DNA of 33,295 nt, taken from contig VGIW01000029.1 of assembly GCA_016867715.1 (NCBI GenBank), positions 1-33,295 of the forward strand. The letters are read 5' to 3'. Both the position numbers and the translations under genes were made by a program. This stretch comes from Candidatus Eisenbacteria bacterium (lineage in GTDB: Bacteria; Orphanbacterota; Orphanbacteria; Orphanbacterales; Orphanbacteraceae). The notes beneath the pieces were generated by a model that was not told the DNA's origin, ran no database searches, and saw only the letters and a list, made by a program, of their open reading frames with translations. Shown in pieces: positions 15,184 to 19,867 of the stretch (position 1 is its first letter; each line of letters begins with the position of its first letter).

Positions 15184-15881
15184 TCCGCGAAACTTCTTTA
15201 CCACGAGTGATCGTCATCGTGCCCGCGGCCGGGGCGGGCCTCCGTCTCGGGGGCGCGGTTCCGAAGCCGTACCGCGCGGTCGAAGGCCGCGCGATCCTCG
15301 CGCGCACGCTCGAGGCGGTCGCCTCGGCGCCCTCGGTCGGAGGGATCGTGGCGGCGGTCGCCCCGGGAGAGACGGAGCGCGCTGCCTCGCTCGCGCCGCC
15401 GGCTCTCGCCTGGTTCCGCGCCGTGGAGGGGGGAGAGGAGCGCTTCGACTCGGTCCATCGGGGTCTTCTCGAAGTGCCGGAGGAGACCGAGATCGTCGCC
15501 GTGCACGACGGGGTCCGACCGTTCGTCACGGCGCGCGAGATCGAGGAGACTGTGGCGCTCGCGCGGACGATCGGCGCCGCGGCGACGATGAGCGCGCCGG
15601 TGGAGACCGTGAAGCGGGTGGACGGCGACGAGGTGACGGCGACGCTCGATCGCGCGAAGATTCGGCTCGCGCAAACCCCTCAGGCCTTCCGCGCGGAGCT
15701 TCTCCGCGAAGCGTACCGGCGGGCGATCGAGGAGGGATGGAAGGGGACCGACGAGTCGGCGCTCGTCGAGCGGATCGGGGCGAGGGTCGGGATCGTGCAG
15801 GCGGACCGCTGGAACATCAAGATCACCGTCGAGGAGGATCTCCTTCTCGCGGAGTGGATCGCGAGGGAGGTTCGCGGATGA
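15180..15881 (+). CDS. ispD: 2-C-methyl-D-erythritol 4-phosphate cytidylyltransferase
   Basis: 233 residues; the TTG start overlaps the mlaD stop (TTGA). IspD makes CDP-methylerythritol from MEP and CTP, the third step of the non-mevalonate isoprenoid pathway. The nucleotide-binding loop PAAGAGLRLGGAVPKPY lies at 15-31, with Arg22 and Lys29 as the expected catalytic basic residues. VHDGVRPFV, APVETVKRV, AQTPQAFRAELLREAY, GTDESALVE and the terminal NIKITVEEDLLLAE match family blocks in order. It is followed by ispF with an ATGA overlap, a pairing common in bacteria that sometimes becomes a fused IspDF. Confidence 0.96.
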   Translation: MIRETSLPRVIVIVPAAGAGLRLGGAVPKPYRAVEGRAILARTLEAVASAPSVGGIVAAVAPGETERAASLAPPALAWFRAVEGGEERFDSVHRGLLEVPEETEIVAVHDGVRPFVTAREIEETVALARTIGAAATMSAPVETVKRVDGDEVTATLDRAKIRLAQTPQAFRAELLREAYRRAIEEGWKGTDESALVERIGARVGIVQADRWNIKITVEEDLLLAEWIAREVRG

Positions 15882-16393
15882 GCATGCCTCGTGTCGGGAT
15901 CGGCTACGATTCACATCGCTTCCGAGAAGGGCGCCCGCTCGTCCTCGGCGGGGTCGCGATTCCCCATCCGCGGGGTCTCGACGGCCATTCGGACGCGGAT
16001 GTCCTCGTTCATGCCGTGATCGATGCCCTTCTCGGCGCCGCCGGCGCGGGCGATATCGGCTCTCTCTTTCCCGAGACCGACTGCGCTTTTCAGAATGCTT
16101 CGAGCATCAATCTCTTGGAGCGCGCGGCCGAAGAGGTTCGGCGCCTGGGCTATGCGGTCGGAAACATCGACGCGGTCGTCGTGGCCGAGGAGCCGCGCCT
16201 TCTCCCGCACCGGGAAGCGATGCGCCGGAACCTCGCGAAGGCTCTCGGCATCGACGAGGGATCGGTCTTCGTGAAAGGGAAGACGAACGAAGGGATGGGC
16301 GCGATCGGCGGCAAGGAAGGAATCGCCGCCTACGCGGCCGTGCTTCTCGTCGAGGCGGATTCCGACGGACGGAAAGGCAAGGCGGGGAAATGA
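15878..16393 (+). CDS. ispF: 2-C-methyl-D-erythritol 2,4-cyclodiphosphate synthase
   Basis: 171 residues from ATG overlapping the ispD stop. It cyclises CDP-ME 2-phosphate to MEcPP, releasing CMP. Metal ligands Asp11 and His13 (GIGYDSHRF) and His45 (HSDADVLVHAVIDALLGA) are present, and the GDIGSLFPETD and KGKTNEGMGAIGGKEGIAAYA blocks are intact. The last dozen residues (ADSDGRKGKAGK) are a polar tail slightly beyond the normal end. It is the last gene of the long plus-strand run; a potential structured element starts five bases beyond the stop. Confidence 0.96.
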   Translation: MSMPRVGIGYDSHRFREGRPLVLGGVAIPHPRGLDGHSDADVLVHAVIDALLGAAGAGDIGSLFPETDCAFQNASSINLLERAAEEVRRLGYAVGNIDAVVVAEEPRLLPHREAMRRNLAKALGIDEGSVFVKGKTNEGMGAIGGKEGIAAYAAVLLVEADSDGRKGKAGK

Positions 16394-16397
16394 AGAA

Positions 16398-16510
16398 GGC
16401 CGGAAGAGCGGTTAGGAGATTTGAGAAGGAGGAGAGAGGGCTCTGCCCCTCTCTCCCTCTACATTGCCGAATTTCCCGTAGTACTGGGATAGTGGAGGGC
16501 TCTTCCGGCC
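16398..16510 (+). other. Three-stem (three-way-junction-like) element downstream of ispF
   Basis: A perfect 12-base inverted repeat, GGCCGGAAGAGC at 16398-16409 and its complement at 16499-16510, encloses two further hairpins. One has a 10-base-pair stem (GGAGAGAGGG at 16431-16440 with CCCTCTCTCC at 16447-16456, loop six bases). The other is weaker, with TCCC at 16474-16477 and GGGA at 16486-16489. The nested layout is that of a multistem RNA or a REP-type palindromic unit. It is not a standard intrinsic terminator, because the only T run (16528-16533) lies 17 bases beyond the stem, though it might still end the ispF transcript. Confidence 0.55.
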
Positions 16511-16931
16511 CAACGCGATCCGTATCATTTTTCTATTCTGAATACTAGTGAAAATCGACCTCCTTCGCACGTCCTTTCGAGGGTGATTTCCAAGTCCGCG
16601 ACGCCGCGCTCGGCGGGGGATCTCTTCCTTCCTCTCGCGGACCTTCTCCCGATCTCAAGTTAGACCCGGTTCCCCGAAGCTTCAAGCGAATCGTCGGCGC
16701 GTTCGGAGATTGTCTTCTCGGGCACGGACGCCCGGACGCTCGCCGCGCGCGAGAGGGATGCTGCGAAGCGTTGAGGCGCGGGCGGTCGAGCCGCTCCTCA
16801 CACGCGGCGCGAGGCCGCCCGGTTCCCGAAACCCGCCTCCGCGCGGCCCCTGAGACCGGGCAGGTCCACATTGTCCTCTTTTTTATACACTTCGCGATCG
16901 TGGCCACTCCGCCCCGGGCGCGGCTGTCTTT

Positions 16932-16960: not shown

Positions 16961-17082
16961 AATGGACCCGCGTTTCGCGGCGGCGCCAACGGCTTGGCAC
17001 GTCTCTTGATCCTCCTATCGGGCAGCAGCCTGTCGGGAAGCAGTGAGGCTCGGCGCTTCAGCCCTCCAGCGCATGAGGAAGC

Positions 17083-17173
17083 GGGTACCGGGAATGTGGG
17101 AGCTCCCGGTACCCTGCTCCCGGCGGCAGAACGAGATTCCAAGACAGCCGAAAGGCTGGAAAGGGGGTCTGCC
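17083..17173 (+). other. Cluster of two strong hairpins, one with a GAAA tetraloop
   Basis: GGGTACCGGGA at 17083-17093 pairs perfectly with TCCCGGTACCC at 17104-17114 (11 pairs, 10-base loop). Next, GGCAGA at 17125-17130 pairs with TCTGCC at 17168-17173 and encloses CAGCC-GAAA-GGCTG (17145-17158), a GNRA-capped stem. No coding sequence or protein similarity is seen. It may be part of one larger structured transcript together with the palindrome that follows, or debris of palindromic mobile units. Confidence 0.5.
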
Positions 17174-17194
17174 AGCGGAGAGTAGGAGAGGAAA

Positions 17195-17294
17195 AACGGG
17201 GGTCAGGTCAGTCCGGAATGGAAGTTTGGGGAACTCAATCGCAAACGGTAGCACCCATGTCTTGGACCAAGGACCAGCCCCCGTTCTTCTTTTT
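17195..17294 (+). other. Long imperfect palindrome ending in a T-rich tract (REP-like unit or ncRNA with terminator)
   Basis: AACGGGGG (17195-17202) pairs with CCCCCGTT (17278-17285). Nested inside are GGTC/GACC (17206, 17272), GTCC/GGAC (17211, 17264), ATGG/CCAT (17218, 17255) and GTTTG/CAAAC (17224, 17242), giving a rod with small internal loops. CTTCTTTTTC follows immediately, so a transcript would end like an intrinsic terminator. The left end GGGGGTCAGGTC resembles ends I associate, from memory only, with REP-associated IS200-like transposon families. No transposase gene is present. Confidence 0.5.
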
Positions 17295-17443: not shown

Positions 17444-18280
17444 ATGCCCTCTAGGAACTACTCGATCATCGTCGCGCCGTCGGACGGAAGTCGAAGCTAT
17501 CACCTCCAAGTCTCCCGGCGGGCCGTGATCGCCGCTGCTCTTCTTCTTTGTCTTGCGGGAGCCTCGTTCGTCTTTCTCGCCGCGACCCACGGCGTTCTCA
17601 CCCGAAAGGTCAGCTCTTGGGAGAGCCTCGAGGCGCGCTGCAGGGATCTCGAGCGCGAGGCCGCGCGGGTGGGAGAGCTCGAGGAAGAAGTGAGTCGGCT
17701 CCGCGAGATGGACCGGAGGGTCAGGAGCCTCCTCGGGCTTCCGGAGCCTCCTGCGACGGTCTCGTCGAACGAGGAAAGCGTGGGGCGAAACGAAGAAGCC
17801 TGGACTCCCGGAGCGACGCTCGATCTTCCCGATGCCGTCGTTCCGAACGAAGAAACGCGCCTCGCGCTCGAGAAAACTCTCCGCGCGCGTCGCGGCGCGC
17901 TCGCCTGGCCGGTCAGCGGCTTCGTCACCTCCTCGTTCGGCGAGGAAAGAGGCGAGGGCGGGGTCCACGTCGGGATCGATGTCGCGGCGGCGCGAAACAC
18001 TCCCGTCACGGCGCCGGTCGCGGGGAGCGTGATCGAAGCCGGATGGCATTCGATCTATGGTAATGTTGCGGTGATCGACCACGGGGGCGGTCTCGTCGCC
18101 GTGTACGGTCACAACGCTCGCCTCCTGGTGCGCAAGGGAGATCGAGTCAAGGAAGGGGACACGGTGGCCCTCGTCGGAAGCACGGGCCAATCGAGCGCCC
18201 CGCATCTCCACTTCGAGACGAGGCAGGACGGGTACGCGATCGACCCGCTCTACCTCTTGAAGAGAAAGGAACGCTCGTGA
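17444..18280 (+). CDS. M23 (LytM-type) peptidoglycan endopeptidase, membrane-anchored
   Basis: 278 residues. A membrane helix at about 27-48 follows a short basic N-terminus, then a coiled coil at about 58-95 and a linker, then the M23 domain at about 165-275. All zinc ligands are present: His175 and Asp179 in VHVGIDVA, and His254 and His256 in PHLHFE; the YGHNARLLV and KEGDTVALVGSTGQS segments agree. It should therefore be an active cross-link-cutting enzyme rather than a degenerate NlpD/EnvC-type activator. The neighbouring bactofilin gene is a recurrent partner; in other bacteria such pairs control local cell-wall cutting and cell shape. The start is supported by the promoter spacing and N-terminal topology; no other in-frame start fits better. 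Confidence 0.92.
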   Translation: MPSRNYSIIVAPSDGSRSYHLQVSRRAVIAAALLLCLAGASFVFLAATHGVLTRKVSSWESLEARCRDLEREAARVGELEEEVSRLREMDRRVRSLLGLPEPPATVSSNEESVGRNEEAWTPGATLDLPDAVVPNEETRLALEKTLRARRGALAWPVSGFVTSSFGEERGEGGVHVGIDVAAARNTPVTAPVAGSVIEAGWHSIYGNVAVIDHGGGLVAVYGHNARLLVRKGDRVKEGDTVALVGSTGQSSAPHLHFETRQDGYAIDPLYLLKRKERS

Positions 18281-18357
18281 GCGCACGCCCATCGATCGAC
18301 GGACAGCGGACGACACGGGAGCGATCTCGAGACGAATCGGACAACGAAGGAGCGGTC

Positions 18358-18771
18358 ATGTTCGGAAAAGACGTCAAAGACAAGCCGGAGGAAGCCGGGC
18401 TCGCCCCGACGGAGAAAGGGTCCGGCCTGAACACCTTCCTCGGTCCGGGCACGAAGTACACCGGGAAGCTCGATGGCTCGGGGAGCGTGCAGATCGACGG
18501 GAACTTCGACGGCGAGATCGTCGTGCGCGGCACGCTGCTTGTCGGGCGCGAGGGGGTTGTGAAGGCGAAGGTGGGCGCCCATCAGGTGGTCGTGCATGGA
18601 AGGCTGGAGGGCGAGATCGACGCGGGGTCGAAGGTGGAGCTGATGGGGGGATCGACGTTCCTCGGCAGCGTGTCCTCCCCGTCATTCGTCATCCAGGAGC
18701 GGGCGCAGTTCGAGGGGACCTGCCGCATGCCGCGCAGGGAGGAGTCGTCCGTTCCCGGAAAGCCGAGGTAG
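18358..18771 (+). CDS. Bactofilin
   Basis: 137 residues from ATG at 18358, chosen because GAAGGAG stands seven bases upstream; a GTG at 18277 overlapping the previous stop would add 27 unconserved residues. Bactofilins polymerise without nucleotide into filaments built from a right-handed beta-helix. The core reads GLNTFLGPGTKYTGKLDGSGSVQIDGNFDGEIVVRGTLLVGREGVVKAKVGAHQVVVHGRLEGEIDAGSKVELMGGSTFLGSV, with the regular short repeats of the family. The hydrophilic N- and C-terminal tails are usual. Cotranscription with an M23 peptidase points to a scaffold that positions cell-wall hydrolysis at the inner membrane. Confidence 0.93.
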   Translation: MFGKDVKDKPEEAGLAPTEKGSGLNTFLGPGTKYTGKLDGSGSVQIDGNFDGEIVVRGTLLVGREGVVKAKVGAHQVVVHGRLEGEIDAGSKVELMGGSTFLGSVSSPSFVIQERAQFEGTCRMPRREESSVPGKPR

Positions 18772-18807: not shown

Positions 18808-19299
18808 TTACAGACTGTCCGCGGCGGGCGAGCGGGGCGTCCGGTCGGCGCGCGCTTCCTCGAAATCCAACCATCCGGCCGACGTTTCGTAGGAACCCGC
18901 GACGACGAACGCAGGCGATTCCGGTCCGATGAGGACTCGCGCGGGGCGATGCTCGCTCGTCGACGGCTCGGACGGAGGAAGCCCGCGGGCGAGGATCGCG
19001 ACGAGCGCGCACGCCGCCGCGGCCGCGTACGCGGGAATCGGCCTTCTGAGATAGGAGCCGATGCCCCTCCTGCGCCTCGCGGGAAGAGAAGCCCGGATTC
19101 GCTCGCGGAGAGTCTCGAGCGCCCGCTTCTCTTCCGCGGTTTCGTCTCGGACGGCGTCCCGCAGGCGAAGGAGAGACCGCTCTTCCTCGCGGCAGGCCTC
19201 GCACGCGAGGAGATGCTCCTGGAGGAGCGCCTCCTTCTCGTCATCCGGCTCGCCGAACACCATCTCAAACAGCTCGTTCTTCGCGTCTTCGCATCGCAT
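18808..19299 (-). CDS. Anti-sigma factor with zinc-binding (ZAS/zf-HC2) domain
   Basis: 163 residues. The N-terminal domain has the ZAS pattern Cys3, His29, Cys33, Cys36 (HLLACEAC), which binds zinc and clamps the cognate ECF sigma factor. A membrane segment lies at about 89-104 (AYAAAAACALVAILA) and a short domain of about 55 residues would be outside the membrane. Its ATG lies inside the upstream sigma gene (35-base overlap), so the two are translationally coupled, as expected for a sigma/anti-sigma pair. Release could be by redox change at the zinc site or by intramembrane proteolysis; neither is shown. It is the last gene of the minus-strand unit beginning with sufS or the TPR gene. Confidence 0.88.
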   Translation of the reverse strand: MRCEDAKNELFEMVFGEPDDEKEALLQEHLLACEACREEERSLLRLRDAVRDETAEEKRALETLRERIRASLPARRRRGIGSYLRRPIPAYAAAAACALVAILARGLPPSEPSTSEHRPARVLIGPESPAFVVAGSYETSAGWLDFEEARADRTPRSPAADSL

Positions 19300-19867
19300 G
19301 GCGTGATGCCTCCTTGGGACTTCCGAGGGAATCCTGATCGAAGAGGGAATTCCGCAAGTTCCTCACCGCGTAGTGGAGTCGCGACTTGACGGTTCCCTCC
19401 GGAATGCAGAGAGTTCGGGCGATCTCGCGGATCGCCATTCCGCGGCGCACGCGGAGGAGGACGACGGCCCTCTGCTCGTCGGGAAGAGCGGCGATCCCCG
19501 CGCGCACCGCGTTCAGCGTCTCGTTTCTTTCCAGCCTCTCGTCGGCCGCCGGCTCCGGCAGATCGTTGATGTGCAATACAAGATCGTCTTCGGCGGCGCC
19601 TCGGCAGCGGGCGCGGCGAAGCTCCGTTCGCGCGAGGTTCGTCGCGATGCGGTACACCCAGGCGCGGAAGGCGCCGCGCTCCCGGTAGCGTCCGATGTTC
19701 CGATGAACGCGAAGCATCGTCTCCTGGAGAAGATCCTCGGCCGCGGCGCGTTCCCTCACCATTCCCCGCAAGTAGCCGAGAAGCGGCCCCGCGTAGCGGT
19801 CGAAGAAAGCGTCGAACGCGCGCGGATCGCCGTTCCCGATTCGTCGTGCGATTTCCTCGTCTTGCAG
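19265..19867 (-). CDS. ECF-type RNA polymerase sigma factor (probable CTG start)
   Basis: 200 residues if translation begins at CTG 19867, which has GAGGAG seven bases upstream. No ATG, GTG or TTG gives the full sigma region 2: the first conventional start, TTG at 19771, would remove DEEIARRIGNGDPRAFDAFFDRYAGPLLGYL, which is plainly conserved ECF sequence. Region 2 continues with AEDLLQETMLRVHRNIGRY and FRAWVYRIATNLARTELRR. Region 4 is LPDEQRAVVLLRVRRGMAIREIARTLCIPEGTVKSRLHYAVRNLR, a standard helix-turn-helix binding -35 elements. It directs RNA polymerase to stress-type promoters when freed from the overlapping anti-sigma factor. A sequence error at a true ATG is the main alternative explanation for the start. 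Confidence 0.9.
   Translation of the reverse strand: MQDEEIARRIGNGDPRAFDAFFDRYAGPLLGYLRGMVRERAAAEDLLQETMLRVHRNIGRYRERGAFRAWVYRIATNLARTELRRARCRGAAEDDLVLHINDLPEPAADERLERNETLNAVRAGIAALPDEQRAVVLLRVRRGMAIREIARTLCIPEGTVKSRLHYAVRNLRNSLFDQDSLGSPKEASRHAMRRREERAV

Follow-up and report, generated by a model that had tools for sequence, protein, structure and literature searches.

In 6S RNA the two ends form a long stem that surrounds an open interior, an architecture shared by the RNA described here. GlmY and GlmZ are small RNAs (sRNAs) that are homologous to one another. They form an envelope-related pair, in which GlmY, according to the accessible part of the source, is transcribed from a sigma-54 promoter preceded by activator sites. 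The LhrC sRNAs of Listeria are predicted to cover the Shine-Dalgarno sequence and are induced by cell-envelope stress, as stated in the accessible part of the report (PMC4132741). For PmaR of Agrobacterium, linked to cell-wall biosynthesis by the title of its paper, the accessible text describes an open loop, closed by a long stem, in which C-rich regions bind the targets (PMC6234868). Here we describe RNA-A, a putative sRNA of Candidatus Eisenbacteria encoded in a stretch of 33,295 nucleotides (the window, analysed as a whole), together with a second unrecognised structured RNA, RNA-B, in its vicinity. The phylum was sampled with seven genomes (G000-G006), all of one family, G000 being the window genome and G001 its congener.

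Compared to LhrC, which occurs in five copies in another phylum and consists of two stem-loops linked by a single-stranded stretch, RNA-A has one enclosing stem; the likeness, drawn from the accessible part of the source, is one of description (PMC4132741). PmaR shares the long closing stem and the open, C-rich interior, but it belongs to an unrelated organism and, as far as the accessible text goes, its binding sequence is not anti-Shine-Dalgarno and most of its targets are regulated positively (PMC6234868). The promoter layout of GlmY, as given in the part of the source available, is similar to that of RNA-B. Unlike GlmY and GlmZ, however, RNA-A and RNA-B show no clear relationship to one another, and the sigma-54-like promoter belongs to RNA-B, not to RNA-A. 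An identity of RNA-A with 6S RNA was rejected, since the best match of the 6S model (RF00013) lies at another locus in all seven genomes, with E <= 1.8e-5 in six of them and E 0.13 in G005. The 6S RNA of the phylum itself (for example G000:C99:2812-2992) scores over the Rfam cut-off in three genomes and below it in four; this, along with the E value in G005, indicates that the model fits poorly in the phylum.

By its sequence, RNA-A is an unrecognised, phylum-restricted family of structured sRNAs that would belong to a known kind, the trans-acting structured sRNAs, as its non-coding structure is conserved and its strand defined. Like CU-rich anti-Shine-Dalgarno sRNAs, it displays an accessible CU-rich motif, CCUCCAC; a second such motif is mostly paired in G000 and G001. 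The parts of RNA-A are as follows.

16386..16512, minus strand: RNA-A, a small gene for a structured RNA, tail included (range of covariance model R1); orthologues in 7/7 phylum genomes, one locus each (alignment A3)
16499..16511, minus strand: 5' arm of the 13-pair closing stem; 91/91 cells paired on the minus strand
16492..16498, minus strand: arm 1, CCUCCAC; invariant in 7/7, mean unpaired probability 0.75-0.97
16474..16489, minus strand: hairpin 1, UCCC/GGGA, the smaller hairpin; its pairs never vary
16463..16472, minus strand: AUUCGGCAAU, conserved apart from a single A-to-G change in G003
16431..16456, minus strand: hairpin 2, variable in sequence; three pairs changed on both sides
16410..16430, minus strand: arm 2, pyrimidine-rich; holds CCUCCUUC, present in 6/7
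16397..16409, minus strand: 3' arm of the closing stem, complementary to the 5' arm
16386..16396, minus strand: U-rich tail after the closing stem, overlapping the ispF stop codon; interrupted in the window genome
16513..16575, minus strand: AT-rich region, the expected place of the RNA-A promoter; no sigma-70 site above chance

An earlier note on this DNA had described, at this site, a perfect 12-pair outer stem around a 10-pair hairpin and a smaller hairpin. The outer stem is found with arms at 16398-16409 and 16499-16510 (12 perfect pairs, 13 when one G-U pair is counted), and the 10-pair hairpin lies within 16431-16456 (arms 16431-16440 and 16447-16456). The smaller hairpin is likewise present, although it is best described on the minus strand, as UCCC/GGGA at 16474-16489. 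The 113 nt element folds with -55.9 kcal/mol on the plus strand (z -4.1) and with -54.5 kcal/mol on the minus strand (z -5.1), and on either strand 0 of 200 dinucleotide shuffles fold as well, in keeping with the compact multistem RNA that had been proposed. When the U tract is left out, the minus-strand folds of all seven orthologues beat 200 of 200 shuffles (z -4.0 to -6.5). The corresponding plus-strand folds show z values of -2.2 to -5.3, with 5/200 shuffles as good in G005 and 0/200 in each of the other six genomes.

The outer stem occupies the same positions on both strands and hence provides a fair strand test. On the minus strand 91 of its 91 cells pair, nine of them as G-U; on the plus strand 82/91 pair, and those nine cells become C-A mismatches. 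For all three helices, a comparison that leans towards the minus strand as hairpin 2 was defined there, standard pairs are found in 171/175 cells on the minus strand (26 G-U) versus 146/175 on the plus strand. RNAalifold, applied to separate alignments of the two strands, yields -39.6 kcal/mol for the minus and -26.9 kcal/mol for the plus strand. On the basis of the pair counts and these weaker energies we rejected the plus-strand reading of the earlier note, and we are highly confident that RNA-A is a minus-strand structured sRNA. An element of the 3' UTR, or a GGA-rich sponge of the CsrA/RsmA type, co-transcribed with ispF on the plus strand, could draw on the good plus-strand folds and on several GGA motifs; given the nine mismatches in the outer stem, the absence of a T tract on this strand and the presence of ispF next to RNA-A in merely 2/7 genomes, it is most improbable.

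The T tract of a normal terminator had also been reported as lacking. This holds for the plus side, where the nine bases after the stem contain no run of more than three T, but not for the minus strand, on which 6, 7, 5, 8, 6, 5 and 7 T, that is 5-8 in each of the seven genomes, lie in the nine bases past the 12-pair stem. A wrong-strand reading can thus conceal a probable terminator. The site was not listed by a terminator scan whose loops are limited to 3-8 bases; the stem encloses about 90 nt. RNA-A is probably about 115 nt long and ended by its own closing stem and U residues. That the element is a terminator and nothing else, either the long-armed end of a minus-strand transcript or an end shared with ispF, would agree with the closing stem and U tract on the minus strand in 7/7 genomes and, in the window genome, with the start of the 12-pair stem 5 bases past the ispF stop. 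We consider this very unlikely, since a terminator has no need of a conserved 90-nt interior, the minus-strand ORFs upstream are merely mechanical calls (e.g. 16545-16907, 120 aa) in DNA poorly conserved among the seven genomes, and ispF is adjacent in just 2/7. As to the other end of RNA-A, the best sigma-70 matches do not stand out from those in shuffled sequences (89 to 409 of 500 as good), and a promoter scan for RNA-A returned 0 sites.

Rfam 15 gives 0 matches at the gathering score in the whole window, in line with the earlier remark that no known RNA family was recognised, and permissive matches comprise only microRNA and lncRNA models far below their cut-offs (E >= 1.5); newness of RNA-A is claimed here only as absence from Rfam 15. 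A blastn search for copies, which the earlier note had proposed, detected a single copy in the 3.5-Mb window genome, the nine other matches being fragments of 14-22 bases with E >= 0.46. In a search of 60 genomes, including its own, strong matches (E <= 1.8e-10) occur in six other family members, and elsewhere only short fragments are matched. Covariance model R1, built from the seven phylum genomes, finds one RNA-A locus in each of them; two additional weak matches, in G003 and G006, correspond to the opposite strand of these loci. Across 386 genomes, searched with stricter filters at which weak matches are lost, R1 gives 7 matches, all within the phylum, and 0 in the 379 others. Phage and plasmid collections contain no RNA-A match, and viral contigs no exact match of one pattern. 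We also rejected a mobile or dispersed repeat (a MITE, a REP/BIME or an integron attC-like hairpin), of which several copies would be expected: the long, perfect terminal inverted repeat would suit such an element, yet there is one locus per genome, at an orthologous position in 7/7, which leaves this reading a practically negligible probability.

The absence of compensatory changes, or of the outer stem, in relatives had been named beforehand as evidence against the element. Compensatory changes are present, and the outer stem is kept in 7/7 genomes, the window genome included. The covariation score of RNA-A amounts to 0.272, compared to 0.213 +/- 0.026 for shuffles, of which 4/500 score as high; related sequences can, however, exceed such shuffles without structure. 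Both sides have changed in 5 of 25 pairs (reached by 20/500 shuffles) and in eight cells (7/500), counts that come from only seven sequences with changes shared by descent and with cells that are not independent events. The share of paired cells is 97.7%, a value reached by 17/500 shuffles, and structures slid along the alignment pair 48-65% of cells; the number of further pair types is ordinary (231/500 shuffles as high). Hereby, the outer stem, with an A-U to G-C change in G005, and hairpin 2, which covaries at three pairs, one of them broken in three sequences, are moderately supported by covariation. The pairs of hairpin 1 are invariant, so that covariation lends them no support and the case for this hairpin is made by thermodynamics and conservation. 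Compared with the five genomes of other genera, the window genome shows 66-76% identity in RNA-A and 54-58% in the adjacent M23 coding DNA; the respective values for the congener are 96% and 90%. A coding sequence was rejected for RNA-A, as no reading frame is open across it in 7/7 genomes on either strand, internal gaps are one to three columns wide and in 2/7 the core has a different length modulo three; yet one minus-strand frame is open in 6/7.

The surroundings of RNA-A comprise the following features.

15878..16393, plus strand: ispF, convergent neighbour in the window genus only; adjacent in 2/7, not in 4, and in G004 the contig ends
16872..16889, plus strand: conserved dyad YGTCYNC-N7-TACA; begins 122-124 bases before TGGCACGT in 7/7
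16994..17011, plus strand: sigma-54-like RNA-B promoter, TTGGCACGTCTCTTGATC; TGGCACGT in 7/7
17017..17292, plus strand: RNA-B, start inferred; the model of its 3' domain matches 7/386 genomes
17228..17256, plus strand: RNA-B core, GGGRAACTCAATCGCAAAYGGTAGCACCC, 29 bases
17444..18280, plus strand: M23 peptidase gene (Pfam PF01551), constant neighbour, 7/7
18355..18771, plus strand: bactofilin gene (Pfam PF04519), constant neighbour, 7/7

In the window, genes for MlaD, IspD and IspF follow each other on the plus strand, and RNA-A had been placed at the end of a putative 10-kb operon, just after ispF. Among the six genomes with sequence on the far side of RNA-A, this tie is confined to the window genus. 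The gene on the far side of RNA-A is ispF in G000 and G001 and an amidohydrolase gene in G005, and in G002, G003 and G006 mechanically called ORFs without a Pfam match are found there. The distance between ispF and RNA-A is 1.5 kb in G005, 6.6 kb in G002 and 16 kb in G003; in G004, where RNA-A lies at a contig end, and in G006 the two are on different contigs. In the fragmented assembly of G006 the ispF match (G006:C499:3141-3611) contains one in-frame TAG, which may be an assembly error. The ORFs flanking RNA-A point towards it in G000, G001 and G005 and run along with it in G002, G003 and G006. Because their orientation varies among these six genomes (in G004 the contig ends at RNA-A), RNA-A is not the leader of one conserved flanking gene, a role that was accordingly rejected. 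The near side shows a constant order in 7/7: RNA-A, 0.4-0.6 kb, the RNA-B promoter, RNA-B, the M23 peptidase gene and the bactofilin gene.

RNA-B measures about 240-300 nt and folds into several hairpins, its end being formed by a GGGG/CCCC stem and a pyrimidine-rich tail. Its 29-base core is found, with three mismatches allowed, in 7/386 genomes, all of them members of the phylum, and varies at two positions. Both sides have changed in 14 of the 43 pairs predicted for the whole RNA, and in 0/20 pairs of the 3' domain, the structure of which is thus without covariation support. RNA-B may act as leader of the M23 gene, or else be an RNA of its own. The consensus of sigma-54 promoters at -24/-12 is TGGCAC-N5-TTGCW. 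Upstream of RNA-B, the pattern TGGCACGT-N3-TYG occurs on the plus strand in 7/7 genomes, and its -24 part fits sigma-54 in all of them; the C of the -12 GC is found in 2/7 (G003 and G006), with A or T in the other five. The promoter is therefore likely, short of proof, to be of the sigma-54 type, and an RpoN DNA-binding domain is encoded in 7/7 phylum genomes. The spacing between the dyad and TGGCACGT is fixed although the spacer varies in sequence, as would be the case for an enhancer site, and the dyad is a probable site for an activator (enhancer-binding protein). The combination of the dyad and the TGGCACG pattern was found at two further places, L149 (G001:C65:6697-6823) and L146 (G002:C7:21262-21386), versus 0 in the reversed control; these may be chance matches or further members of the same regulon. 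Sigma-54 has been tied to the control of the bacterial exterior, according to the accessible part of the report (PMC3162934), which fits the M23 peptidase and bactofilin genes as neighbours of RNA-B.

On this basis we propose that transcription of RNA-A would start near 16512, in the stretch separating it from RNA-B, independently of ispF. Within the resulting RNA of about 115 nt, the two ends would pair in the 13-bp stem, which together with the U residues could terminate transcription and shield the RNA. Inside the stem, the model places two hairpins, the open CCUCCAC arm, AUUCGGCAAU and the partly open, pyrimidine-rich arm 2. The CCUCCAC arm, perhaps aided by arm 2, would pair with purine-rich ribosome-binding sites of mRNAs and thereby alter their translation, and the regulation might concern the cell envelope, a role suggested by the fixed place of RNA-A beside RNA-B, the M23 peptidase and bactofilin. 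Taken as a whole, this explanation (a minus-strand RNA with its own terminator, CCUCCAC acting at ribosome-binding sites, envelope control) comes, in our estimation, somewhat close to an even chance without reaching it.

The mode of action by itself we put forward only tentatively. Pairing with ribosome-binding sites, of the kind proposed for LhrC according to the accessible part of that report (PMC4132741), was preferred, and confidence in it was lowered because arm 2 is mostly paired in the window genus. In detail, the unpaired probability of CCUCCUUC is 0.50-0.64 in four relatives and 0.15 in G000 and G001, and the motif is missing in G004. CCUCCUUC resembles the anti-Shine-Dalgarno end of 16S rRNA. 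In arm 1, the second CC is partly paired in G003 and G006, and in AUUCGGCAAU the GG is predicted to be mostly paired and the remainder mostly open. Complements of arm 2 occur at 39 sites in the seven genomes, four of them RNA-A itself, compared to 27 for the reversed control. Among the 28 sites inspected (two self), six lie near a start codon, one of which (L180) probably begins a gene; the other five sites are crossed by a longer open frame in a different phase. The 11 sites outside this inspection comprise two self matches and nine others. No conserved mRNA target was found among the sites of the arm 2 pattern in the seven genomes.

This outcome, together with the only partly open arm 2, would also suit a protein-binding scaffold or sponge, in which hairpin 1 and AUUCGGCAAU form the putative protein site and mRNA pairing is secondary or absent. 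The invariance of hairpin 1 and the single change of AUUCGGCAAU in seven sequences are consistent with such sequence recognition. However, the CCUCCAC arm, too, is invariant and also open, as an antisense seed would be, and we regard the scaffold as unlikely, if still worth weighing against the preferred pairing with ribosome-binding sites.

The interest of RNA-A derives from its arrangement with RNA-B. A phylum sampled by seven genomes hereby gains two families of structured RNAs, together with their coordinates and covariance models, and the fixed order of RNA-A, dyad, sigma-54-like promoter, RNA-B, M23 and bactofilin amounts to a testable proposal for RNA control of envelope or cell-shape genes. 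In an extended version, RNA-A and RNA-B would form a divergent, phylum-specific switch, in which an activator bound to the dyad drives sigma-54-dependent transcription of RNA-B and both RNAs set the expression of M23- and bactofilin-type envelope genes, one through CCUCCAC on ribosome-binding sites, the other as leader, decoy or sponge; to this we assign a rather low probability. Pairing between RNA-A and RNA-B, assessed with RNAduplex and by the longest exact complement, is not above chance, with 22 to 198 of 200 shuffles as good. Nominal exceptions concern arm 2 versus RNA-B in G005 (10/300 shuffles), G003 (34/300) and G006 (35/300). Beside the bactofilin gene, two minus-strand ORFs of the window (18808-19771) resemble anti-sigma and ECF sigma factors.
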